From the NCBI RefSeq assembly GCF_000304315.1, contig NC_018485.1:2636501-2700500 (forward strand): a DNA stretch of 64,000 nucleotides, read 5' to 3'. A program made the position numbers and the translations under genes. Positions 43,817 to 63,768 of this stretch are shown here, in pieces. Source of the stretch: Methylocystis sp. SC2 (GTDB lineage Bacteria; Pseudomonadota; Alphaproteobacteria; Rhizobiales; Beijerinckiaceae). Each line of letters opens with the position of its first letter. Position 1 is the stretch's first letter. Under the pieces are notes generated by a model. It ran no database searches and had not been told where the DNA came from. It was given only the letters and a program-made list of their open reading frames with translations.

Positions 43817-43925
43817 CTTAGAGCAGGCTCCGAAAAAGTTGATAGACTTTTTCGATGAGAACCTGCTCCAACATTTTGCGATTCCTTATCGATCACTTGT
43901 TTCCATGTGATCGGGAAGCGCTCAG
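43817..43925 (-). repeat. two-module palindromic intergenic repeat, copy 6 (reverse orientation)
   Basis: Module A (cttagagcaggctccgaaaa ... gagaacctgctcc), linker aacattttgcg, module B (attccttatcgatcacttgt ... gggaagcgctcag). The B palindrome is imperfect here (CACTTGTTTCCATGTG). Its terminal bases form the TGA stop of nifA. Confidence 0.9.
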
Positions 43926-45730
43926 AACTTCTTTACTTCGACGCCATGCTTTTGCAGCGCGTAGCCGATCTGACGAGGGGTGAGTCCAAGCAGCCGCGCC
44001 GCCTTCGCCTTGACCCAGCCCGCCCGCTCCATGGCGTCGATCAAACGTTCGCGATCGGAGGGCGCGTCGCGCTCCACGGCGGCGCAGTTTTCGGCGCCGG
44101 GACAGGTCTCGGGCGAAGTGTCGGCTTGGGGGCGCTCACTCGTCGTCATCGGCGGCGGCGGCGGCGCAGGCGCAGGCTGGCGGTCGCGCGGCGGCGCCAG
44201 CGTCGGCAAGATTGCGACGGGCGCATGAGGCGCTGAACGCTCCAGCGAGCCGCTCCAAAGCACCGAAGAGAGACAGCCGTCGTTGCGACAGGAGAAGTCC
44301 TTGTCGGTGATGACATTCCCTTGCGCCAAAGTCGCCGTCCGAAACACGCAGTTTTCCAGCTCTCGGATGTTGCCGGGAAAGGCGCAGGCGGTGAGCACAT
44401 GCAGGGCCGACTCGGAAAAGCTCAGCCGTCCGCCTTGCTCCGCATTGAAGCGACGCAGAAATTCATTGGCGAGAGGTTCGAGATCGCCCTTGCGGTCGCG
44501 CAGCGGCGGGACGAAGATGGGCACGACGCTGATGCGATAGTACAAATCGGCGCGAAATTCATTGCGCTTGACCGCCTCTTCGAGATTTTTGTTCGTCGCG
44601 CACACGAGTCGAACGTCGACCTTCTGCGTGCGCGTGCCGCCCACCCGTTCGAATTCGCCTTCCTGTAAAACGCGCAGCAGCTTTGCCTGAAACGCCGGCG
44701 TGATTTCGCCGATCTCGTCGAGAAACAAGGTGCCGCCGTCAGCCAGTTCGAAACGGCCTTTGCGCATGTTCACCGCGCCGGTGAATGCGCCGCGTTCATG
44801 GCCGAAGAGTTCCGACTCCAGCACGCTCTCGGGGAGCGCCGCGCAATTCAGCTTGATGAAGGGTTTTGAGCGGCGCGGCGAGAGATTGTGGATCGCCGCG
44901 GCGAACAGCTCCTTGCCGGTGCCCGATTCGCCGCGCAGCAGGACGGTGGACTTGGCCTTGGCGACGACGCGAATCTTATCGATCACCGCGCGCAGCGCCG
45001 GGCTGTTGCCGACGACGCCGTTGATGCCGCTGATCTTGGCTTCAATCTGCGGAAGGCGGTCGCCTTTTTCGAGCCAGGCCTTTTCCTGCATCAAACGTTC
45101 ACGGTCGCGTGCGATGAGCTTGTGCAGTCGAAGGGTCTGGCCGACGAGATTGGCGATCATCGTCAGGAAGCGCACGTCATGGTCGAACAGCGTCACCGAA
45201 CGATCGTCGTAGACGCGGTCCACCGTCAGCGTGCCGACAACGGCGTCGCCCTCCTTGATAGGGACGCCGATCAGTGAGAAGGGCCGGCCGTCGGTCGGTC
45301 CCCATTCGGAAAAGTCGGAGCCTTGGAAGAGCGGCGAGGCTGCGACGTTCTCGACGACGAGCGGCATTTTCGTCGCGACGATCTGCCCCACGGCGCGTTC
45401 GGGCAGCCGGTCAAAGAAACGCTTGGCGGAATCTTCGCTCCAGCCCGATCCGACCACAACCTCGGGCCCGCCCGCCGCGTCAAGCAGCGCGACCAAGCCA
45501 TGGCGCATATCAAGAAAACTCGAAAGCAGCGCCAGCACGCCCGCAAGCGTGGTTTCCAGACGGTTTGGCGACGCCAGGAGCTTCGATATTTCGTAGATGC
45601 CGACGAGAGCGGTGTCTCTCACATCGAATTCGCGCGCCTTCGGCGCGCACGCGCCGCCTGCCAGCTGCAAACCCATACCTTTTAGCCTCACGGCATGCGT
45701 GGGTGTTTTCGACAGTTTTGACGCAAACAT
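43922..45730 (-). CDS. nifA: NifA, nitrogenase sigma-54 activator
   Basis: 602 residues from ATG 45730 (start uncertain; a longer frame exists). Domains: GAF (about 45-185), AAA+ with Walker A LLRGESGTGKEL, the sigma-54 contact loop ESELFGHERGAFTGA and Walker B GGTLFLDEIGE, then a Pro-rich linker and a Fis-type helix-turn-helix (AGWVKAKAARLLGLTPRQIG). Between AAA+ and linker is a perfect C-X11-C-X19-C-X4-C. This redox/iron motif makes rhizobial-class NifA directly oxygen sensitive, without NifL. It should activate nif promoters elsewhere in the genome. Confidence 0.95.
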   Translation of the reverse strand: MFASKLSKTPTHAVRLKGMGLQLAGGACAPKAREFDVRDTALVGIYEISKLLASPNRLETTLAGVLALLSSFLDMRHGLVALLDAAGGPEVVVGSGWSEDSAKRFFDRLPERAVGQIVATKMPLVVENVAASPLFQGSDFSEWGPTDGRPFSLIGVPIKEGDAVVGTLTVDRVYDDRSVTLFDHDVRFLTMIANLVGQTLRLHKLIARDRERLMQEKAWLEKGDRLPQIEAKISGINGVVGNSPALRAVIDKIRVVAKAKSTVLLRGESGTGKELFAAAIHNLSPRRSKPFIKLNCAALPESVLESELFGHERGAFTGAVNMRKGRFELADGGTLFLDEIGEITPAFQAKLLRVLQEGEFERVGGTRTQKVDVRLVCATNKNLEEAVKRNEFRADLYYRISVVPIFVPPLRDRKGDLEPLANEFLRRFNAEQGGRLSFSESALHVLTACAFPGNIRELENCVFRTATLAQGNVITDKDFSCRNDGCLSSVLWSGSLERSAPHAPVAILPTLAPPRDRQPAPAPPPPPMTTSERPQADTSPETCPGAENCAAVERDAPSDRERLIDAMERAGWVKAKAARLLGLTPRQIGYALQKHGVEVKKF

Positions 45731-46379
45731 CGTGCCATGCCGCCCGCATTCCCTTAGCTTCGTGAAAACAACGGCCTGCGACGGCCTGGAAATCAGCGTC
45801 GGCGCGCATGCTTGATCAACTCTTGCGCCTTCTGCCGTCTCCTCCGGCGCCGCCGCCCGATTGATCGGCGACCGGCTCATCGAAGCCGTGCTCTCGCCGC
45901 AACCGACATTGACGCCGCTGGACGCCGGCGGAGAGATTTGCGATGCGCGACGCGCCGCGCGCATCGCAACAAACCGGTCGCGGAATTGCAGGGTTTCAGC
46001 GCGTTATGCGGCATTTCGCCGCCATGGCGCGGTTTTGTCTTTCCAGCGCGCTCCGACGAACGCAGCGGCGCGATGCGTCGAGCGCAATCATTGATGAATT
46101 GGGCGCGAAGGGCCGGACATGCGGCCGCTGTTCTACGAGGATTGTTGCTTGGGAGCGCCGCTGCCTAGATTTACAACAGACTGAATAGTTATTGGTCGCT
46201 TATTGCGGCGGGCGTTTGGTATGCCCCGCGCATCGCCGATGATATAGACGCGATCGTGCAGTCCCATTTCATCGAAGGAACCGGCTCGTGCGGCTGATTA
46301 TTGTGCCGCAGCCGTAACGACGTCGGTCGCCGCCGAGGGGAAGCCATAGCGAAAACCACTTTTCTTAGGAGCCGACGGC
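45731..46379. other. intergenic region upstream of nifA and the molbindin gene
   Basis: About 650 bp without an intact gene. On the minus strand near 46195-46270 the frame reads MGLHDRVYIIGDARGIPNAR, possibly the tail of a flavoprotein reductase, but this is too short to call. No TGT-N10-ACA NifA site or -24/-12 promoter was recognised. Confidence 0.4.
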
Positions 46380-47997: not shown

Positions 47998-50514
47998 ATG
48001 AGCGACGTAAAATCTCCGATTTCCCTACGCATGCTGACACAGTCGCTTCCGCGGACTCGTGCAGGAGATCTGACGTCGGTAAAGGCGTTGAGCGTTGCTG
48101 CGGCGCTTGCGTCGAGCGTCAGCGCTTCGGCTCTGGCGCAGTCCGCTTCGACGACGTTGCCGCCCGTTAAAGTCGATGCGCCGCACGAGAAGCCGCGCGC
48201 CGCGGCGCCGGCGAAACCCAAGCCCATCGCCGTCGCTCAGCCGCATCCGGCGCATCATCCGGCCGCCAACCAGGCCTCGGGACAGCGGCGCGGGGCGCCG
48301 GGCGCTTCGAGCGCCGGCGGCCAGGGCGCGGGGAGCGGGGGCCTTCCGATCTTCGCTACGGCGCCCAACGCCAATCCTTACGCCGATCCGGTTGCGCCCT
48401 ATAAGGTCGACCGCCTGTCGTCGCCGAAATTCACCGAGCCGGTGCTCAACACGCCGCGCACCATCACGGTGCTGACCAAGGAAGTGCTCGACGACAAGAA
48501 CGCCTTCACGCTGCGTGAAATCGGCCGCAGCACGGCGGGCGTGACGCTGGGAACGGGCGAAGGCGGCAACGCTTTTGGCGACCGCTTCTTCATTCGCGGC
48601 TTCGACGTTCGCAACGACATCTTCGTCGACGGCGTGCGCGATCCCGGCGTCAGCATTCGCGAGAACTTCTATACCGAGCAGGTCGAAATTCTGCGCGGGC
48701 CGGGGTCCACGTTCGCCGGTCGCGGCACTGCGGGCGGCGCGATCAACATCGTCACCAAACAGGCGACCGACCGCGACTTCGTCGAACTCAAAACCATCGG
48801 CGGCTTTTCCGACCACATGAAGCGGGTGACGGCTGACGTCAACAAGGTGATCAGCCCGATCCTCGCGGTGCGCGTCAACGCGCTTTATCACGACTCGAAT
48901 GTCGCCGGCCGCAGCTTCGTCACCGACTATCGCGACGGCGTCGCCGGCTCAGTGGTGTTCAAGCCGCTCGACGACCTGACGCTGACCGCTCAATACACGC
49001 ATGTCTATCAGAATGGCTTGCCGGACTTCGGCGTGCCGTACAACCGGATCTGGAACAGGCCGTTCCCCGAAGGCGTCATTCCTCGCTCCAACTGGTATGG
49101 CTTCCTCGACCGCGATTTCCAAGTTGCGCTGCAGAATTTCGGCACCTTCACCGCCCACTATCGCTACAATGACAATCTCGTATTCGACAATCGTTTCCGG
49201 CAGAGCCGCTCCGTCCTGGATTATATCGGATCGCTGACCGGGAGCGCGGATCTGTTCGCCTCGACGGTGAGAATCGGCGCGCAAAGCCGCTACCAGGTGG
49301 TGAATACGCTCGACAACCAGACGGAGGCGACGCTTAAAGTCGAAACCGGCCCGGTCAAACACGCGCTGGTCGCCGGCGTCGAATTCGCGCGCGAAGGCGT
49401 CACGCGCACCAATTATCAGGGACTCGCCTCCGAGTTGAATGGGATTCCCACCGGCAACACGGTGACCTGCAATCTCTATCTTCCGTGCACCTATCTGCCG
49501 TTCCTGAACACCCCCTACCGCAACACCAATCCGACGCGGATCGCGGTCGATACGAAATCGGGCTATCTGATCGAAACCGCGAACTATCAGGACGTCGTGA
49601 TCGTGAACGGCGGCGCGCGATTTGACGATTACAACATCACGAGCCGCACTGAGACCCTTTCGACATTCGCCAAGAACCATTCAGGTCTCTTCAATTGGAA
49701 CGCCGGCGTCGTCTTCAAGCCGCTGCCGAACGTCAGCGCCTACGCCGCCTACGCCACCTCGGCGACGCCCGTCGGAGCCGAGCTTGACGGCGGCGCGGCG
49801 AATTACGGCGGCTTGAACACGGCGTCGCAAATCTTCGCTCCTCAACTCAACAAGGCGGCGGAGGTCGGTCTGAAGTGGGAGCTGTTCGACAGGCATCTGC
49901 TCGCGACAGCCGCCTTCTTCAAGACGGATGTGAGCGGCGCGAGAGAAGTGAACTCCGGCGTCACCACCGGCAACGCGTCCTATTACGTCCAGGGCGTCGA
50001 TCTTGAGGTTGCGGGCAACGTCACCGACAAATGGATGGTGCTTGGCGGCATCGTGTTGATGGACTCGCGGGTGACCAGCTCCTACGCGCGAACGAATATC
50101 GGTCTTCAACTCGCCAATATCGCGCATGAGTCCTTCAGCCTGCTGTCGAAATACAAATTCGGCGACTTGATCGGCCTTGCTCCGAACGCGCTCGAATTCG
50201 GCGGCCAGGCGATCTATCGTTCCAGGATCTATGGCGGCAACAATATTGTCGCCAATGGCGGCACATCGTTCAACGCGTTTGGCTTGCCGACTCCGACCGC
50301 CACGAATCTCTTGAACGTTCCGACGATCCTGCCTTCGTACTGGCGCTTCGATATTTTTGCGGAGGCGAAGATTGGCCAGAACATCACGATGAAGTTCTCG
50401 GTCAACAATCTCTTCGACCGCACGATCTACGACGCCTTCTATCAGACGGCGACGCCCTTCGCGCAGATGTCGCCCGGCCGCTCGGTCTATCTCGAAACCA
50501 GCATCTTGTTCTAA
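47998..50514 (+). CDS. TonB-dependent siderophore receptor
   Basis: 838 residues. The N-terminus contains a signal-like segment ending ASALAQ and a TonB-box-like [12 protein letters not shown] long Pro/Ala/His-rich linker follows. The plug domain has [40 protein letters not shown] and [20 protein letters not shown]. The 22-strand barrel ends in the terminal Phe ([10 protein letters not shown]). It resembles catecholate receptors of the Fiu class. It is followed by PKHD dioxygenases, exbB, exbD and tonB in one direction. Confidence 0.92.
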
Positions 50515-50527
50515 GGGAGCGCCTCGC

Positions 50528-51211
50528 ATGCTTGCTCACATACAGGGCGCGCTCGATCGGAAGGAGGTTAACGCTCTTCGCGAGGCGATGGCGCAGGCGG
50601 CGTGGGAGGACGGCGCCTCCACCGCCGGAGCCAACGCCGGCGAGGCGAAGCGCAATGAGCAGCTCCCGCCCGACTCTGAGATCTCGCGCGCGCTCGGCAA
50701 GCGGCTGCTCTCGTCGCTCCTCGCCAATGCAGCTTTCGTTTCGACGGCTGTTCCGCTGCGCATCTATCCGCCATTGTTCAACCGTTATGGCGTCGGCGAC
50801 CACTTCGATCCGCACGTCGACAACGCGATACGCGGCGACGCCATGACCGGCGCGCGTATCCGCGTCGACCTCGCCGCGACTGTGCTTCTTTCTGATCCCG
50901 ACGAATATGAGGGCGGCGAACTGATTGTTGAGGACATCTACGGATCAAGGCGGTTCAAGCCGCCGGCGGGCGATCTCATTCTTTATTCGGCCGGCAGTCT
51001 GCATATGGTGACGCCTGTCGCCAGCGGCCTACGTCTCGCCTCATTTCTGTGGCTGCAAAGCATGATCCGCGCCGACGAGGCGCGCAGCCTCGTTTGCGAT
51101 CTCGACGAATCGATACAGGAGCTCGCGCCGCGGGTGGGCGCAGACGATCCGGATTTGCGCAAGCTGGTGACCGTCTACCACAATCTCATCCGCTACTGGG
51201 GGGAAGCATAG
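50528..51211 (+). CDS. PKHD-type Fe(II)/2-oxoglutarate dioxygenase (PiuC/YbiX family)
   Basis: 227 residues, AGGGAG before the ATG. Iron ligands His and Asp lie in [11 protein letters not shown], the distal His in [11 protein letters not shown] and the oxoglutarate Arg in RLASFLW; also [12 protein letters not shown] and LPAGDL-like [13 protein letters not shown]. PiuC genes accompany TonB siderophore receptors. The substrate may be the siderophore. A homologous second copy follows. Confidence 0.92.
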
Positions 51212-51216
51212 CGCTG

Positions 51217-51900
51217 ATGCTTATTTGCATACCCGAAGTTCTCTCCAAGCAGCAGGTGGCGTTCTTTCGCGCGGCCATGGACAGAGCGGCGTGGGAGGAT
51301 GGGCGCGCGACCGCAGGTTCGCAGTCCTCTCTGGTGAAGAACAATCTTCAACTGCCGCAGGCCAGCGAAGCCGCGCGCGAACTCGGCGAACATGTGCTCG
51401 AGGCGCTTGCGCGGTCGCCGATGTTCGTCTCCGCGGCGCTGCCGCACAAGATCTTTCCGCCGCTCTTCAATCGCTATGGCGTTGGGCACGATTTCGGATT
51501 GCACGTCGATAATGCGATCCGCGGCATTCCCGGAACGCCGATTCGCATTCGCACGGACCTTTCATGCACGCTGTTCCTCTCGGAGGCGGAGGAGTATGAC
51601 GGCGGCGAGCTTGTGATTGAAGATCGGGTCGGCCAGCAGGAAGTGAAACTTCCCGCAGGCGATCTCGTGCTTTATCCTTCGACGAGCCTTCATCTTGTCA
51701 AAGGCGTCACGCGTGGTGAGCGAATCGCCTCGTTTTTTTGGATGCAGAGCATGATTCGCGACAATGTGGCGCGCGCTTTGCTCTTCGACCTCGATCAGGC
51801 CATCCAATCCCTGACGACTCGGCTGGGCGCCGGCGATCCTGCCTGCGTCAAATTGTCGGGCGTTTATCACAATCTGATCCGAACATGGGCTGAAGCATGA
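51217..51900 (+). CDS. second PKHD-type Fe(II)/2-oxoglutarate dioxygenase
   Basis: 227 residues, same architecture and length as the preceding gene but clearly diverged: [13 protein letters not shown] carries His and Asp, [11 protein letters not shown] the distal His, RIASFFW the Arg. All iron ligands are present, so both copies could be active. The start five bases after the first copy and the shared length indicate tandem duplication. Its stop overlaps the exbB start. Confidence 0.9.
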
Positions 51901-52709
51901 AACGTCCTTTGCAGTTTCTCGTGATCTCAATCATTGCGCTTCTCGCTGCGCAGAGCGTCGCAGCCGCGCCAGGGTCGCCAGCGCTCGACGCAGCGATTGC
52001 GGCCACCAAGCCTCATGATCTTTCCGTGTGGACGATGTTCGTCAACGCCGACATCGTCGTGAAGTTCGTGATGGTCGGCCTGTTGCTGGCGTCCGTCGCG
52101 ACATGGACGATCCTCATCGCCAAAACGATTGAACTGAAACGGGCGCGCGAGCGCGTGATGACGGCGATAGGTCGCCTCTCGGAAGCGCGCGGCCTCTCCG
52201 AGGCGCGGCTGGCGCTTGGCGGCGGCGATCGTTTGACGCAGGCGCTGCTTGGCGAGGCGACGCGGGAGATGAAGCTTTCGTCCGATATCGTTGCCGCGCC
52301 CGGCGTGAAGGAGCGCATTGCAGCCTGCTTCGCGGAAATCGAACGCGCCGAAGCGCTTTCGATCAAACGGGGCACCGGACTGCTCGCCTCCGTCGGATCG
52401 ACGGGGCCCTTCATCGGACTGTTCGGCACCGTCTGGGGCATCATGAACAGCTTCATCGGCATTTCCAAAGCGCAGACCACCAATCTGGCCGTCGTCGCGC
52501 CCGGCATCGCCGAAGCGTTGCTCGCAACGGCGATCGGCCTCTTCGCCGCCATCCCGGCTGTGCTCATCTACAATCATCTTGCGCGCCAGGCGTCGGCCTA
52601 TCTCGAGCTCGTTTCTAATCTCTCCGGCGAATTGCTTCGCATCGTCTCGCGCGATCTCGACCGCGCCGGACATGCCGCCGCCACAAACAAGATTCACGCG
52701 GCGGAGTAG
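51897..52709 (+). CDS. exbB: ExbB, energy-transducing inner-membrane protein
   Basis: 270 residues with a signal-like N-terminal helix plus three membrane helices in the MotA/ExbB/TolQ fold. Motifs: [52 protein letters not shown] and [20 protein letters not shown]. It couples proton flow to TonB. ATGA overlap with the dioxygenase gene. Confidence 0.94.
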
Positions 52710-52712
52710 ATC

Positions 52713-53138
52713 ATGGCCGTCCATCTCAAAAGCGATCTTCAGGAAACGCACGAAATCAACGTCACACCGTTCATCGACGTGATGCTCGTGCTGCTCATCA
52801 TCTTCATGGTGGCGGCTCCTCTCGCCACCGTCGATCTGCCGGTCGATCTCCCGGCTTCCAACGCCGCGCCGCATGAAAAGCCTGACAAGCCGATTTACGT
52901 GACGATCCAGGGCGACCTCGCGCTGGCCCTGGGCGAGACGCCCGTCAAGCGCAACGATCTCGTTTCGGCGCTCGACGGGCTCCTGGGCGACAAGTCGAAA
53001 CGCATCTATTTGCGGGCCGACTCCAGCGTGCCCTATGGCGAAATGATGGCGATCCTGGAGCGTCTGCGCGCCGGCGGCTATTTGCGCGTCGCGCTCGTCG
53101 CGCTCGACGCCGGCGGCAAGGAGCAGGCGCCGCAATGA
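52713..53138 (+). CDS. exbD: ExbD, energy-transducing protein
   Basis: 141 residues; start three bases after exbB. One membrane helix containing the functional Asp (INVTPFIDVMLVLLIIFMVA), then the periplasmic domain with IYLRADSSVPYGEMMAIL. Partner of ExbB and TonB. Confidence 0.94.
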   Translation: MAVHLKSDLQETHEINVTPFIDVMLVLLIIFMVAAPLATVDLPVDLPASNAAPHEKPDKPIYVTIQGDLALALGETPVKRNDLVSALDGLLGDKSKRIYLRADSSVPYGEMMAILERLRAGGYLRVALVALDAGGKEQAPQ

Positions 53139-53926
53139 GCGCCGCCGCCGCTCTTCAGAAGCCGCAATCGAACGGCAAGCTCTGGGGCGCCGCAGTCGCC
53201 CTCGCCCTGTTTCTGCACGTGGGCGGCGCCGTCGCGGCGCTAATAACCTTACAGGGCGATCTCGACGAGAGCGCCTCCGGCGCGCCGGCGATCGAATTGT
53301 CTCTCGAGCCCGCCGCGCCGCGCGACGCCGAGGCCGCGGATCTGCCGCCGGGCCCCGTCTCGGACGAAGCGGCCGCCGCTGCGCCTTCCGTCGCCGCCTC
53401 GGAGGCGAAAGAGACGAATGAAGAGCGGATCACCCACGCCGAGTCCGAAGACGCCGAGCTCACGCACAACGTCCGCCCAGATAAGCCGATCGAGGAGGAG
53501 AAGACGCATCAGGCGCAGCCGGTCGTCTCGGCCGAGTCCGCCGCTTCGGAAGCGACCGCGCCGCCCAAGTCTGAGGCCGAACGACAATCCGACAGGCCGG
53601 TCGCGCCTGTTCAGGGGGCAGACGCCGTGGCCAACGCCGTGAAGCTCACGTGGCAAAAGGCCTTGCTCTCGCATCTCAACCGACACAAGCGCTATCCGGG
53701 CGCGGCCGGTCGCCGATCCGCTGAGGCGAGCGTTTCCTTCACGCTCGACAGGCGCGGCCATGTCGTCAGCTACAGCATCAAACGTTCTGCGGGACATCCG
53801 CTCTTCGACGACGCTGCGCTGGCGATGATGAAGCGGGCCGACCCGGTCCCGCCGCCGCCGCCGGTAATCGCGGACGAGGGGCTGACCTTCGAAGTGCCCG
53901 TGCAATTTCGCGTCGGCAAAAGATAG
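53135..53926 (+). CDS. tonB: TonB, periplasmic energy transducer
   Basis: 263 residues: N-terminal helix (LWGAAVALALFLHVGGAVAA), a long acidic/Ala-rich spacer, and the C-terminal TonB domain (WQKALLSHLNRHKRYPGAAG, ASVSFTLDRRGHVVSYSIKR, PLFDDAALAMMKRADPVPPP, FEVPVQFRV). ATGA overlap with exbD; last gene of the iron-uptake operon. No clear terminator follows. Confidence 0.93.
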   Translation: MSAAAALQKPQSNGKLWGAAVALALFLHVGGAVAALITLQGDLDESASGAPAIELSLEPAAPRDAEAADLPPGPVSDEAAAAAPSVAASEAKETNEERITHAESEDAELTHNVRPDKPIEEEKTHQAQPVVSAESAASEATAPPKSEAERQSDRPVAPVQGADAVANAVKLTWQKALLSHLNRHKRYPGAAGRRSAEASVSFTLDRRGHVVSYSIKRSAGHPLFDDAALAMMKRADPVPPPPPVIADEGLTFEVPVQFRVGKR

Positions 53927-54134
53927 TGATGCGGCGGTCGAATGTTGTTCGATCGCCGCACGATTTCCGACCCGGCTAGGACGAACTCAGCTGCGACTGA
54001 AGCATGTGGAGATTAGTTTGGAGTTCTCCACAACCCTTCTTCGCGGCTAAGCTTTTCTATTCGTTAAAAAATTTGGAGCATTGTCGGAACAGATTTTCGA
54101 ATCGGCGCTTCATTCCCCGTGTGGAGAGCTGCTC

Positions 54135-54341
54135 ATGCCGCCACATGACAACCGAGCGAGATTGACAGAGACGACAATGCGAGGAAATCGATACACACGC
54201 GATGCGGTTGATGTGGAGCCGAGCGTGAGGCGGCTCGGCGAGCAGCTTAGACGCCAATTTTCCGATATTGCCTCGGAGCCGCTGCCGGACGACATGCTCG
54301 CGCTTTTGGAAGAGCTTAGTCAGGCGAACGCCGTCGAGTAA
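54135..54341 (+). CDS. NepR-like anti-sigma factor, copy 1
   Basis: 68 residues from ATG 54135 with GGAGAG seven bases upstream. The C-terminal half has the NepR pattern: SVRRLGEQLRRQFSDIASEP, then LPDDMLALLEELSQ. NepR binds the ECF sigma factor EcfG until phospho-PhyR titrates it. Neither partner gene is here. A near-consensus EcfG site (GGAAC-N16-GCTT, 54086-54110) lies upstream. Confidence 0.75.
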   Translation: MPPHDNRARLTETTMRGNRYTRDAVDVEPSVRRLGEQLRRQFSDIASEPLPDDMLALLEELSQANAVE

Positions 54342-55951: not shown

Positions 55952-56176
55952 ACGCAGCGCTCATGGATGGACTGACCCCGCGCTTCGCCTTTTGTCCAAA
56001 AGCGTTCACAAGAGCTGGGCCATGAGGCATGCAGGTTCGAAGCCAAAGGCGCGGGCTACGCGCGAACCCGAGCCGCGGGATCGTGCTTCAATTGAGACAA
56101 TCGCATGATGTTGGATTCCGCGCCCCGCGCCTTGGCGTGAGCCTTGCTTGTCACCCGCTAAGGGGAGCAAGACTCG

Positions 56177-56647
56177 GTGCTTGACGCTAGACAGACACGC
56201 AGCCTCACGACGGAGAAGGACCTCGAACATCCGATCGAGGCCGTTTGGCGGGCGATGACCGATTCCGAATGGCTCGCCGTTTGGTTCTTTCCAAATGACG
56301 TTGAGCCGGTGGTCGGTCACAAGTTCACGATCTGGAGCCGGCCCATCGAGCGCTGGGACGGCGAGTTCAAATGCCAGGTGCTCGCGGTGGAGCCCGGCCG
56401 TATGTTGCGTTTCCGCTGGTCGGGCGGCGATGACGAGCTGAAGGGTTTTGGCCGATATATCGACACGACAGTCACCTGGACGATCTCGCAGCTGCCGAAT
56501 GGCGGCACGCATTTTGTTTTCGTCCAGGAGGGAATCGACGCCGCCGCCACGGCGGACGCGGTCTATGACGTCATGCTCAAAGGCTCGCAGAGCGTGTTGA
56601 ACTCTCTTGCTAAAAGACTCCCTGACCTCATCGAGCACGGCGCCTGA
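56177..56647 (+). CDS. SRPBCC/AHSA1 domain protein
   Basis: 156 residues from GTG 56177 with AGGGGAG upstream. AHSA1-type features: LEHPIEAVWRAMTDSEWLAV, WFFPNDVEPVVGHKFTIW, DGEFKCQVLAVEPGRMLRFR, TVTWTISQLPNGGTHFVF. A hydrophobic-cavity fold with unknown ligand. It stands 57 bp upstream of the ArgD-like gene on the same strand. Confidence 0.88.
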   Translation: MLDARQTRSLTTEKDLEHPIEAVWRAMTDSEWLAVWFFPNDVEPVVGHKFTIWSRPIERWDGEFKCQVLAVEPGRMLRFRWSGGDDELKGFGRYIDTTVTWTISQLPNGGTHFVFVQEGIDAAATADAVYDVMLKGSQSVLNSLAKRLPDLIEHGA

Positions 56648-56704: not shown

Positions 56705-57808
56705 ATGTCAGTCACATTTACAGAGTCGACGCGCGAGCCTAACCGACACATCCAACCCGCCGTCGGCGATACAGTCGACGCCGGCGCGCCGCTCGACTTT
56801 TCCGGCGCATCGCTCTTCTTTCCGGAGAATTCTACAGGATCAACGCCGCGCATGGATGCGCCAATGGATTCGCCGCAATCGGCGCCGGAAGCCGCCGCGC
56901 CTTCCGACGCTTTATGCGCGAAGATTTCGCCCGTTTCTTTTGGCGACCGCGTATTATTGTTTCCCACCGAGCCCGACGCCTGGCGTTCCGCCGTCGCAAT
57001 GGTTCGGCGTTACCATGCCCTCGTCGGTCGTCCCAAGCGCCGCCGGTTCATCATCTGCGTCGGGCCCGCCGATGGAACGGCGAGCCTTCCGCCTGGCCTT
57101 GAGGGCGATGACGAGATCGTCATTCTCCGAACGGACGATCACGCCGCAGTGCAGGCGGAAGTCGACGTGAGGACCGCGGGAATTTTGATCGCTCCGGTTC
57201 GAACGCGCGCCGGTTTTGAGGTCGTCCCAGGAAGCGTGCTCGCCCGGCTGCGCGAGACCGCAGACGAATATGGGCTCATGCTCGGGTTCGACGAGACCAT
57301 TTGCGGCCTTGGCCGCTCGGGCATGCTTTGGGCGCACGAATGGACAGGCGTCACCCCGGACCTGATGGTCGCCAGTCATGCGCCTGCAGACGCCCCGCCG
57401 CTGGCCGCGCTCGTCGTCACGCAAAGACTGGCGCGAGGGGCGCTCGGCGGCTCGGCGCTGGTTCAGGCGGCCGCGCTTCTGGCCGGTCATGCCCTTTTCG
57501 ACGCTCTGTCGACGCCAGGCTTTCAGGAACGCGTGCAGAACCGAAGCTGGTATCTCGAAGACCAACTGTCCGCGTTGTTTTATCGACGTCGTGCAGCCTT
57601 TACGGCGCTGGATGGCCTTGGCCTGATGCAGGCGCTAACGCTTGCGGGAGACGCGGAGCCCCTGTGCGCGAAGCTGGCCGAACACGGGCTCCTCACGCGC
57701 GCGATGGGGCCGGTCCTTGGTCTATTCCCTCCGCTCACAGTTGCGGAAAGCGACGTCGATGCGGCGATATCCGTCATTGATATGGTTTGCGCGCGGGAGG
57801 AACGATGA
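56705..57808 (+). CDS. ArgD-like class III aminotransferase homologue lacking the PLP lysine
   Basis: 367 residues, shorter than the family's usual 390-430. Clear homology to acetylornithine aminotransferases: DAWRSAVAMVRRYHALVGRP, GILIAPVRTRAGFEVVPGSV, YGLMLGFDETICGLGRSGML (PLP Asp in place), WAHEWTGVTPDLMVAS. The next residues read HAPADAPPLAALVV where active enzymes have K-GxGGG-PLGA; the Schiff-base Lys is His. The GSEA loop (here TEPDAW) and the Thr of the partner-subunit phosphate loop are also lost. The N-terminal 70 residues are unrelated. Probably a pseudoenzyme. It is coupled by ATGA overlap to the next frame. Confidence 0.82.
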   Translation: MSVTFTESTREPNRHIQPAVGDTVDAGAPLDFSGASLFFPENSTGSTPRMDAPMDSPQSAPEAAAPSDALCAKISPVSFGDRVLLFPTEPDAWRSAVAMVRRYHALVGRPKRRRFIICVGPADGTASLPPGLEGDDEIVILRTDDHAAVQAEVDVRTAGILIAPVRTRAGFEVVPGSVLARLRETADEYGLMLGFDETICGLGRSGMLWAHEWTGVTPDLMVASHAPADAPPLAALVVTQRLARGALGGSALVQAAALLAGHALFDALSTPGFQERVQNRSWYLEDQLSALFYRRRAAFTALDGLGLMQALTLAGDAEPLCAKLAEHGLLTRAMGPVLGLFPPLTVAESDVDAAISVIDMVCAREER

Positions 57809-57945
57809 GCGCGCGAGTCGTTTGCCTCCGCCTCACTGTCGTGGACGCGCCGTCCAATCCGGCCGGAACGGCGTCGGCGGCTCTCGGCGCGACCTCAACG
57901 AAGCGCGCGCGCATCCCTCAAATCGTGGACCATTCAACATTATGA
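57805..57945 (+). CDS. possible 46-residue coupled open frame
   Basis: Starts in an ATGA overlap with the ArgD-like gene and stops in another ATGA overlap with the cupin gene, a geometry rarely kept by chance. The sequence (MSARVVCLRLTVVDAPSNPA...) matches nothing I know. It may be a real small protein or only a ribosome bridge. Confidence 0.4.
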   Translation: MSARVVCLRLTVVDAPSNPAGTASAALGATSTKRARIPQIVDHSTL

Positions 57946-58592
57946 CCGAGATAAATGCGGCTGATCCGAATTCGCGAGTCGTCAAGCGAGATCCTGTTCC
58001 CCCCGCTCTGCGGCGATTCATCTGGGACATTCAGTCCATGGTCGAACTCGCCGAAAGCGAGCGGGAGGTGTTGCTGATCGGCCGCGATCTCATGGCCCGG
58101 CTGTTTACGACGGACGATTGGCTGCCAACGGTCTTCGCCGTCCCAAATCCCGCCGGAGGCGAGCAATTCCAGATTTATCGCGACGTGCTGGATCGCTTTT
58201 CGCTCGTGAGCACAATTTTGTCAGGCGGCGCCTGCGTGACCATCTTTCAGCCTTCGGTTTGGGAGATTGCCGGCGTGTTGCGCGGCGCGGTCAACCGCCA
58301 GCAACCCGAGGCTTCTTCGACGAAGAGCGCTCAGGCCGGCGTGTCCCGTCTGTTGCATGCGCCCGCCGTGGAAGCCCGCGCGTCCGGGAGCGGGGAGGTC
58401 GTGGAGCTTTGCAACGCGCTGCATGATCGGACATCCATCGTCATTCATGTTTATGGCGGCGACATCGGAGCGATCACTCGCCGAACCGGCGCGTCACGCG
58501 AAAGTATGGACGCGCAGCCATTGGGCTACGCCAATGCGGAAAACGCTCCTCCTTACGATATCTTTTCAATTCAGAATGAGCTCCGGGATTGA
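57942..58592 (+). CDS. thiol-dioxygenase (CDO/3MDO-type) cupin homologue lacking iron ligands
   Basis: 216 residues. Related to the cysteine dioxygenase/3-mercaptopropionate dioxygenase cupins: LIGRDLMARLFTTDDWLP, QFQIYRDVLDRFSLVSTIL, SVWEIAGVLRGAVN and the C-terminal IVIHVYGGDIGAITRR with the third His. The first cupin motif, which in active enzymes reads P(V/I)HDHxVWG, is TIFQPSVWE here, so two of the three iron-binding His are gone. Like its neighbour it looks like a pseudoenzyme kept for another role. Confidence 0.75.
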   Translation: MTEINAADPNSRVVKRDPVPPALRRFIWDIQSMVELAESEREVLLIGRDLMARLFTTDDWLPTVFAVPNPAGGEQFQIYRDVLDRFSLVSTILSGGACVTIFQPSVWEIAGVLRGAVNRQQPEASSTKSAQAGVSRLLHAPAVEARASGSGEVVELCNALHDRTSIVIHVYGGDIGAITRRTGASRESMDAQPLGYANAENAPPYDIFSIQNELRD

Positions 58593-58624: not shown

Positions 58625-58879
58625 CTATGAGGGATCGAAATATTCGATCTTTTGACCTGGGTCTCTGTTCGGGCAGGGAATTTCCTTGAACAGAACTTCG
58701 GCGAAGGCTTTGAGGCCCGTATTCGTGCGCAGAGACAGGCGATTGGGGTCGGAGGTCCAGCTTTGATAAGTGACGATCCCACGGGTGATGCTGATCACCG
58801 TGTATTTTTCCGAGTTGATTTCGCCGCCCTTCGTTCGATAGCACTTCCCGGGCAGAACGCTTTCTTCCTTCATTGGCAT
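58625..58879 (-). CDS. small conserved-looking protein of unknown function
   Basis: 84 residues; GAGGTGAG six bases before the ATG at 58879 is a strong ribosome site. The sequence suggests a small beta-barrel (VLPGKCYRTKGGEINSEKYT, VISITRGIVTYQSW, AEVLFKEIPC). No family named. It is followed by the pseudoenzyme cluster tail to tail and preceded by the ferredoxin gene on the same strand. Confidence 0.65.
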   Translation of the reverse strand: MPMKEESVLPGKCYRTKGGEINSEKYTVISITRGIVTYQSWTSDPNRLSLRTNTGLKAFAEVLFKEIPCPNRDPGQKIEYFDPS

Positions 58880-63117: not shown

Positions 63118-63420
63118 TCAATGTGGGGCGACTTCGTTGCTGGGGAGCACGTCGCGGATACGCTTGCCTTCCACCCAGACGAAAGCGCCGTCGGCGTCGG
63201 CGCAGGCGATGTCCTGTTCGGCGATCAGCTTGTCGCAGAGCATGATGCAAATGGCGTCGATCGGCGCGTCTCTGTCGTTTTCTTCGGTCATGCGGTCGAT
63301 GGAGATTTCACCCATCTCCTCGTCGTCGACCAAATGGATGATAAACACTTCCTCATGGCCCGGAGAGCCGTGCGCGTTCACCCGGAAGGTTTCCCCCTTG
63401 TAGCGGAATTCGCGTATCAT
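63118..63420 (-). CDS. small acidic protein of unknown function
   Basis: 100 residues (MIREFRYKGETFRVNAHGSP, then EEVFIIHLVDDEEMGEISID). Composition and a steady frame support a gene; family not recognised. The 203 bp on its left (62915-63117) hold no recognised gene, although one plus-strand frame stays open. Confidence 0.6.
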   Translation of the reverse strand: MIREFRYKGETFRVNAHGSPGHEEVFIIHLVDDEEMGEISIDRMTEENDRDAPIDAICIMLCDKLIAEQDIACADADGAFVWVEGKRIRDVLPSNEVAPH

Positions 63421-63768
63421 TCCTGGCCCTTTTTTTCATTTGCTTGATGTGTCCGCGATTGCGCGCCTTGGCTTTTCGGGCGGCCCCCGCGTGCCCGGCG
63501 CGCACGCAAACTGCGTGCCATTTGTGCGTCGTTGACCTTCGTTTTGCGCGAAGAGTCGCGGAAATTGCTTTTGAATGAGGCAAGAGGCGTTGAGAAGCAT
63601 AGAAAAGCGCCACGCCCATCCCGCCGAAGACGTCCCTCTAATAAGCGTGAACGGCGTGGCCGGCGCGGCGCGATTTCGCCGGACGGTCTTCTCGCTTGTG
63701 ATCGACCGCGGCCGGCGCGAAAGCGATGTCGCTCATTATGTGGCTCAGCGATTGCTTTGAGCCGGCCA
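63421..63768. other. intergenic region before the right-edge gene
   Basis: A plus-strand open frame (63575-63760) ends eight bases before the TPR gene and contains LISVNGV, reminiscent of peptidyl-prolyl isomerase N-termini, but the rest does not fit. Not called as a gene. Confidence 0.35.

Follow-up and report, generated by a model that had tools for sequence, protein, structure and literature searches.

A metal-less relative of thiol dioxygenases that co-occurs with a lysine-less aminotransferase relative in Methylocystis and related bacteria

The cupin protein encoded at 57942..58592 (plus strand, 216 aa) of the DNA analysed here, 64,000 nucleotides from Methylocystis sp. SC2 that are called the window below, reads as a metal-less, 3MDO-like pseudo-dioxygenase. 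Judged by its residues, it is the descendant of a thiol dioxygenase and not one in mechanism. That the protein is dead as an enzyme, is under selection and co-occurs with a second disabled enzyme, an aminotransferase relative (AT), is well supported by comparisons across genomes. For the pair as a whole, the best explanation is that they are pseudoenzymes controlled by the nitrogen regime which would act by binding protein; we give this about an even chance of being right.

A cupin without its iron site

An earlier note on this DNA, made from the letters of the window, had described a protein on the framework of 3MDO and CDO that lacks the HxH iron ligands. This turns out to hold well beyond the window. 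Single-sequence scans with Pfam and NCBIfam returned no CDO or cupin match for the family proteins, which is why profile and fold comparisons were used. These find a cupin fold and sequence homology to thiol dioxygenases of the 3MDO/CDO type, with an identity of about 30% to the structures of 3MDO and bacterial cysteine dioxygenase type I (PDB 6xb9, 4tlf, 3uss, 4qma).

The iron ligands of the A. vinelandii MDO are His90, His92 and His142, and a Ser-His-Tyr (SHY) triad is a feature of the 3MDO-type enzyme (both as given in part of PMC10966181). The iron columns were set by alignment with three genuine 3MDOs of other genomes. The sequences compared were the window protein, the best 120 of 299 database matches and 10 loci, 131 in all. 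Not one of these has a histidine at any of the three iron columns, so the loss is a family trait. The first column holds 12 residue types, the second is mostly Pro (85) and the third mostly Val or Leu (76). The note had allowed for metal binding by other residues that restores activity; with no replacement histidine at the three ligand columns, this looks improbable.

What the family shares with 3MDO and cysteine dioxygenase type I is the fold, the Trp following the metal motif and the Arg of 'ERF' (both retained in 131/131), and most often the His (117/131) and Tyr (125/131) of the triad. Unlike these enzymes, it lacks all three iron histidines and has mostly lost the triad Ser, which is left in 35/131; the His has become Gln in 12. 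The window protein is typical, keeping His and Tyr with a Val for the Ser, so that its triad is incomplete. In addition, Gln stands at the place of the Asp of HDH in 111/131, and Glu108 is conserved at 0.96. Many relatives are labelled '3-mercaptopropionate dioxygenase' or 'cysteine dioxygenase family protein' in databases; as statements of function, these labels are probably wrong. The window's own genome yielded no second family member, and a live paralogue is not evident there since the sole other match has an E-value of 0.11.

The pattern of conservation has also changed. It was measured as the mean share of the commonest residue, in 56 pseudo sequences below 80% identity and in real 3MDOs; since only 7 of the latter were compared, their figures are rough. 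The N-terminal helices (20-62) score 0.86 in the pseudo sequences against 0.57 in the real ones, and the C-terminal tail (196-216, of the APPYDIFSIQTEIRD type) 0.76 against 0.61. For the barrel (63-195) this is 0.57 against 0.69, and for the metal strand (98-115) 0.68 against 0.87. The seven came from nine candidates, of which L135 is truncated and L038, with HDHTLW and thus both histidines, was left out. Conservation has in other words left the metal pocket for the helices and the tail, the inverse of real 3MDO. From this trace, which is the one expected when catalysis changes to protein binding, we infer that the protein may now be a binding one.

Selection was estimated within the Methylocystis clade, using a Nei-Gojobori script. 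The dN/dS is 0.30 for the cupin gene (6 genomes) and 0.33 for the AT gene (7 genomes), with six neighbours at 0.04-0.30. The cupin value is 0.300 without the frame-shifted copy of one MAG (L012), and 0.389 with it. By these ratios the cupin and AT genes are constrained but fast-evolving. Two more damaged copies were seen: the cupin gene of M. rosea (L006) carries an early stop codon close to its 3' end and a Tyr-to-Cys change, and the AT of one genome (G575, L150) has an in-frame TAG.

The neighbouring gene and the distribution of the pair

The AT gene, at 56705..57808 (plus strand), encodes a class-III, ArgD-like pseudo-aminotransferase (PF00202) with a His at the PLP-lysine column. Its nearest NCBIfam models are those of acetylornithine transaminase, below cut-off. 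The structure model has a mean pLDDT of 85.7 and the class-III aminotransferase fold, matching 4jev with an E-value of 6.8e-27. The earlier note had called this neighbour lysine-less, and rightly so: the PLP Schiff-base lysine is absent in 102/102 AT sequences (57 have His), and present in 20/20 ordinary homologues. At what we take to be the PLP ring site, an Asp-Glu pair is retained in 101/102, and at the presumed phosphate site the residues are mostly substituted. Set beside ArgD (class III; PDB 4jev, 4adb), the AT is alike in fold and in the Asp-Glu pair, but has no PLP lysine, has mostly replaced phosphate-site residues and has a shortened N-terminal part. Another homologue in the window's genome, 35% identical and of ordinary length, is presumably the true ArgD.

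The presumed operon starts with an AHSA1-domain protein (56177..56647, plus strand; Pfam PF08327, E 4.3e-16). The AT and cupin genes had been described as linked by ATGA overlaps. Such overlaps exist, but they run through a third reading frame, a poorly conserved 46-codon ORF (57805..57945, plus strand) that overlaps both neighbours in one clade; AT and cupin themselves are 133 nt apart and are not directly coupled. The frame of this ORF is kept in 6/7 clade genomes (a call made by eye from the spacer sequence for L006 and L007) and broken in L005. Its length ranges from 23 to about 50 codons, and its dN/dS is 0.70 (5 aligned sequences, the broken one included). A peptide gene was rejected on account of this variable length, broken frame and dN/dS. 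By eye, no obvious ribosome-binding site lies 5' of the cupin gene, so the ORF may aid translational coupling. It is probably a spacer for such coupling, and not a protein.

Convergent with the cupin gene is a conserved 84-aa protein (58625..58879, minus strand), which is under very strong constraint (dN/dS 0.036) and belongs to no Pfam family. Two Xanthobacter loci (L022, L023) have 56-61% identical homologues, each followed on the same strand by an esterase-like gene and the cupin gene. When gene neighbourhoods were searched for a third partner, no neighbour common to all genera came up. The gene preceding the cupin is esterase-like in Xanthobacter, and GlpC-like in Methylosinus and Methylocapsa. 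Further upstream in the window, 47998-53926 (plus strand) holds a Fiu-like TonB-dependent siderophore receptor and two adjacent genes for PKHD-type Fe(II) dioxygenases, and continues with exbB- and exbD-like ORFs (by reading translations) and tonB. A NepR-like anti-sigma factor follows at 54081-54341 (plus strand).

Adjacency of AT and cupin was seen only in one Methylocystis clade (the window, L003-L007 and L012). By coordinates, the genes are adjacent in 9/10 Methylocystis genomes that have both, the exception being M. heyeri (G089). Outside that clade the two are unlinked, and in Methylosinus C49 the AT sits on a plasmid, pMSC49a.

Despite this, they are found together. The earlier note had proposed looking for co-occurring pairs across genomes, and co-conservation is indeed what whole-genome searches return. 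The 149 genomes of the family sample contain 6 with both genes, none with AT only, 3 with cupin only and 140 with neither. For Methylosinus (10 genomes) these numbers are 8, 0, 1 and 1, and for Xanthobacter (14 genomes) 12, 0, 0 and 2, where the AT of G584 is a partial match. The link is looser in Methylocystis (39 genomes), at 10, 2, 9 and 18. Across these three genera, 30/32 genomes with AT have the cupin, and 10/40 cupin genomes have no AT; pooled, this gives a Fisher P of 2.4e-7 with kinship ignored. The two AT-only genomes, both Methylocystis, are fragmented assemblies, one of which has an in-frame stop. The 21 named cupin genomes have a pseudo-AT in 15 cases. The other six are Rhodoblastus L019, Methylocapsa L016 and the Methylocystis-type L008, L009, L010 and L013.

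Real or unclassified 3MDO matches were excluded from these counts by score. The uncounted matches, with E-values of about 1e-28 to 1e-39, are those of G558, G567, G580 and G589, and second matches in G547, G582, G587, G592 and G594; HxH was seen in the two that were read (G558 and G580). An order-wide search scored 7 candidates per genome, and no evidence of absence is drawn from it. Its three other matches (L036-L038) carry the HxH pair.

The AT of M. heyeri groups with Methylosinus in the AT tree (support 95/96), and is 83% identical to that of Ce-a6, while the cupins of these two are 56% identical. The M. heyeri cupin is 52-57% identical to those of both Methylocystis and Methylosinus; it is placed with the Methylocystis clade, on a long branch and with lower support (91/91). 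As the AT groups with Methylosinus and the cupin does not, this suggests that the AT was transferred into a genome that already carried the cupin.

Putative promoters and nitrogen context

A sigma-54-type -24/-12 site, TGGCGTGAGCCTTGCT (56133..56148, plus strand; GG-N10-GC), lies 28 bp upstream of the AHSA1 gene that opens the presumed operon, and scores 18/20. The scoring was devised after sites had been seen by eye. It uses the author's own weights, and a consensus that we take to be that of sigma-54. The whole window has six score-18 sites on both strands, with about six expected by chance, so a lone site proves nothing. The case for the window therefore has to come from position and conservation: a score-18 site is present at the matching place in 7/7 clade genomes (the window, L003-L007 and L012), where the background rate is 0.013 per 260 bp.

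In six genomes where the two genes are unlinked, sites of at least 18/20 precede both. By gene, such a site is found upstream of AT in 6/6 Methylosinus and M. heyeri loci, and upstream of the cupin in 7/7 loci of Methylosinus, M. heyeri and L009. Little aligns between the Methylosinus AT promoters apart from the GG-N10-GC element itself. Three of three Rhodoblastus-like loci (L019, L107 and L108; the grouping is our own) also have a site of at least 18. Scores are lower in Methylocystis group B, with 17.5 in 3/4 loci and 15.5 in the fourth, and in Methylocapsa (16). The Xanthobacter upstream regions are mostly weak, below 18 in 11/12 (at least 18 for AT in 1/6, for cupin in 0/6); further 5', ahead of either the esterase-like gene or the 84-aa ORF, four loci score 16.5-17.5 and two score 19. 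A conserved GG-N10-GC element close upstream, and with it a putative promoter, is thus found in the Methylocystis clade, Methylosinus, M. heyeri and the three Rhodoblastus-like loci, and is weak in most Xanthobacter and in Methylocapsa.

As a control, the other genes of 13 AT or cupin loci were scored. A site of at least 18/20 precedes 2/125 of these, and 13/13 of the AT or cupin genes, in loci already known to have one; since the scoring followed the sighting of the sites, this comparison is not blind. It left out Xanthobacter, Methylocystis group B, Methylocapsa, L009 and L015.

The first promoter patterns that were tried (NifA, FNR, Fur, Zur and an over-strict sigma-54) gave nothing above chance. 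One potential site upstream of the 84-aa ORF (58937, score 16) has no counterpart in the six relatives with the pattern used. Pattern scoring also finds a sigma-54-type site, TGGCACGCAGTTTGCG (63505..63520, minus strand), before a 100-aa ORF (63118-63420) at the edge of the nif island.

The sites before the AT and cupin genes are a new observation of this analysis. They are of the same kind as the RpoN motif YGGCR-N6-TTGC, which part of a transcription-start study of Methylosinus sporium 5 places before nif and nitrate genes, in an organism where ammonium represses nif (PMC12403871). Taken together, sigma-54 control of the cupin and AT genes is likely.

The surroundings in Methylocystis point to nitrogen as well. 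The locus sits between two nifA genes about 18 kb apart. One encodes a NifA-family sigma-54 activator in the window (43922..45964, minus strand; TIGR01817 at 725 bits, cut-off 529), and the other is about 6 kb beyond the cupin (L170:5942-7783). A sigma-54-type site (45737, minus strand) falls inside the listed ORF of the window's nifA, near its start, so the true start is probably downstream of the listed one. Past the second nifA comes a nif island that includes nifB, nifHDK, nifEN and fixABCX, where nifA and nifB were called by NCBIfam, nifH by TIGR01287 and the rest by reading translations. Over its large extent (L170-L172; G000:C1 2695000-2754700), the island contains two equal-scoring nifH copies about 28 kb apart. 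In Methylocystis group B (L008, L010, L013, L109, L173), the cupin lies amid homologues of nif-island genes and beside suf genes, with fixABCX members in view in L008, L109 and L173. Two groups of Methylocystis loci thus have nif-island genes next to or around the cupin.

Elsewhere the context differs. The stretches around unlinked AT and cupin genes from Methylosinus, M. heyeri, G123 (a cupin genome) and Xanthobacter hold no nif-specific genes. Apart from weak matches, they hold suf genes plus a NifS-like one near the AT of Xanthobacter, and a Rieske-type gene near the cupin of X. agilis. The AT of X. agilis (L113) adjoins cysG, nirB and a nitrate transporter. Presence of nifH is weakly associated with the cupin (14/19 against 8/20). 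This is a weak test; at least two contigs (G564, G581) end about where nifH would be. Duplicate nifH copies may break draft assemblies, which makes an absence of nifH unreliable.

Membership of the NifA regulon is not borne out. The canonical NifA enhancer TGT-N10-ACA is present at 8/17 sites in the nif island, and within 350 bp upstream of 0/25 AT- or cupin-linked sites, where 0.9 would be expected by chance. A relaxed NifA pattern finds 4/25 of the latter against 2.7 expected, and a dyad search for an alternative enhancer turned up nothing convincing.

What the pair may be doing

The preferred reading goes as follows. The cupin protein would descend from 3MDO but, as a pseudoenzyme, neither bind catalytic iron nor oxidise thiols. 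It would be made from a sigma-54 promoter, most likely under nitrogen limitation, and co-produced with the AT, a presumed pseudoenzyme from an acetylornithine-type aminotransferase that could not bind PLP through a Schiff base. The cupin fold would then serve as a rigid body, with the N-terminal helix pair and the C-terminal tail as the surface at which a protein partner docks. The foremost candidate for this partner, or for a fellow subunit of one complex, is the AT-like protein, and such a complex might regulate or scaffold metabolism of the nitrogen regime. Protein binding is a proposal, made probable by the lost iron residues, the co-inheritance with a second disabled enzyme and the apparent nitrogen-type switch.

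There are precedents. LCB1 of serine palmitoyltransferase is a lysine-less pseudoenzyme subunit, and such subunits regulate or scaffold active enzymes. The cupin and AT proteins resemble them in having lost catalytic residues from a fold that is still under selection. They differ in that two different dead folds co-occur, with no active partner identified. Among the matches listed in a literature search (titles and starts of abstracts), neither metal-less thiol dioxygenases nor dead aminotransferases, nor the two as a pair, are described.

The first rival, close to an idea in the earlier note, is a ligand sensor, in which the empty cupin pocket, the PLP-less AT pocket or both would bind amino acids or thiols but not turn them over, and would signal the nitrogen or sulfur status. 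The retained triad His and Tyr, the invariant 'ERF' Arg and the Asp-Glu pair of the AT ring site speak for it. Compared with real 3MDO, however, conservation is lower in the metal strand and the barrel, the triad Ser is mostly gone, the His is Gln in 12 sequences, and the phosphate site of the AT has mostly been replaced. We consider a sensor unlikely, if the best of the rivals.

It could also be that there is no system, and that both are old accessory genes of this alphaproteobacterial group which co-occur through shared ancestry and a nitrogen-regulated neighbourhood. Gene contexts that vary between genera, the many cupin-only genomes and a Fisher test blind to kinship all fit this. Yet the AT is mostly unlinked and apparently mobile, given the C49 plasmid and M. 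heyeri, and still nearly always accompanied by the cupin; the sigma-54-like sites before both unlinked genes in six genomes also speak against hitch-hiking. This reading is rather improbable. The suggestion in the earlier note of a system built from two retired enzymes survives in part: the family-wide losses, the unlinked co-occurrence and these paired sites favour it, whereas the cupin genomes without AT (10/40 and 6/21) and the two with AT only do not.

Cupin folds are catalytically versatile, and a new reaction by way of other residues, another metal or a cofactor would fit the near-site residues that the family has in common (the Gln for the Asp of HDH, and Glu108). Against different chemistry stand the missing substitute histidines, the 12 residue types at the first ligand column and the departure of conservation from the pocket, which together make it quite implausible. 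Decay of both genes towards loss in Methylocystis, hinted at by dN/dS values at or above the upper end of the neighbours and by the stops in the M. rosea cupin and the G575 AT, is very improbable given intact copies in several genera and a dN/dS of about 0.3.

Returning to the pair as protein-binding pseudoenzymes, a bolder version may be stated, which is speculative and on balance doubtful. Here the two would form a heteromeric cupin-AT complex, a two-part regulator made entirely of dead enzymes. Induced by sigma-54 under nitrogen limitation, it would bind and steer an active enzyme that belongs to the nitrogen regime, for example the genuine ArgD, or Fe-S or nitrogenase supply. One half of it would be mobile on plasmids, and would persist almost only where the other half lives.

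In any case, two unrelated enzyme folds that have both lost catalysis and are kept together, usually unlinked and with an apparently similar promoter type, make an unusual case. If the preferred reading is true, an unannotated family would gain a testable role in nitrogen handling by methane-oxidising and related Alphaproteobacteria.
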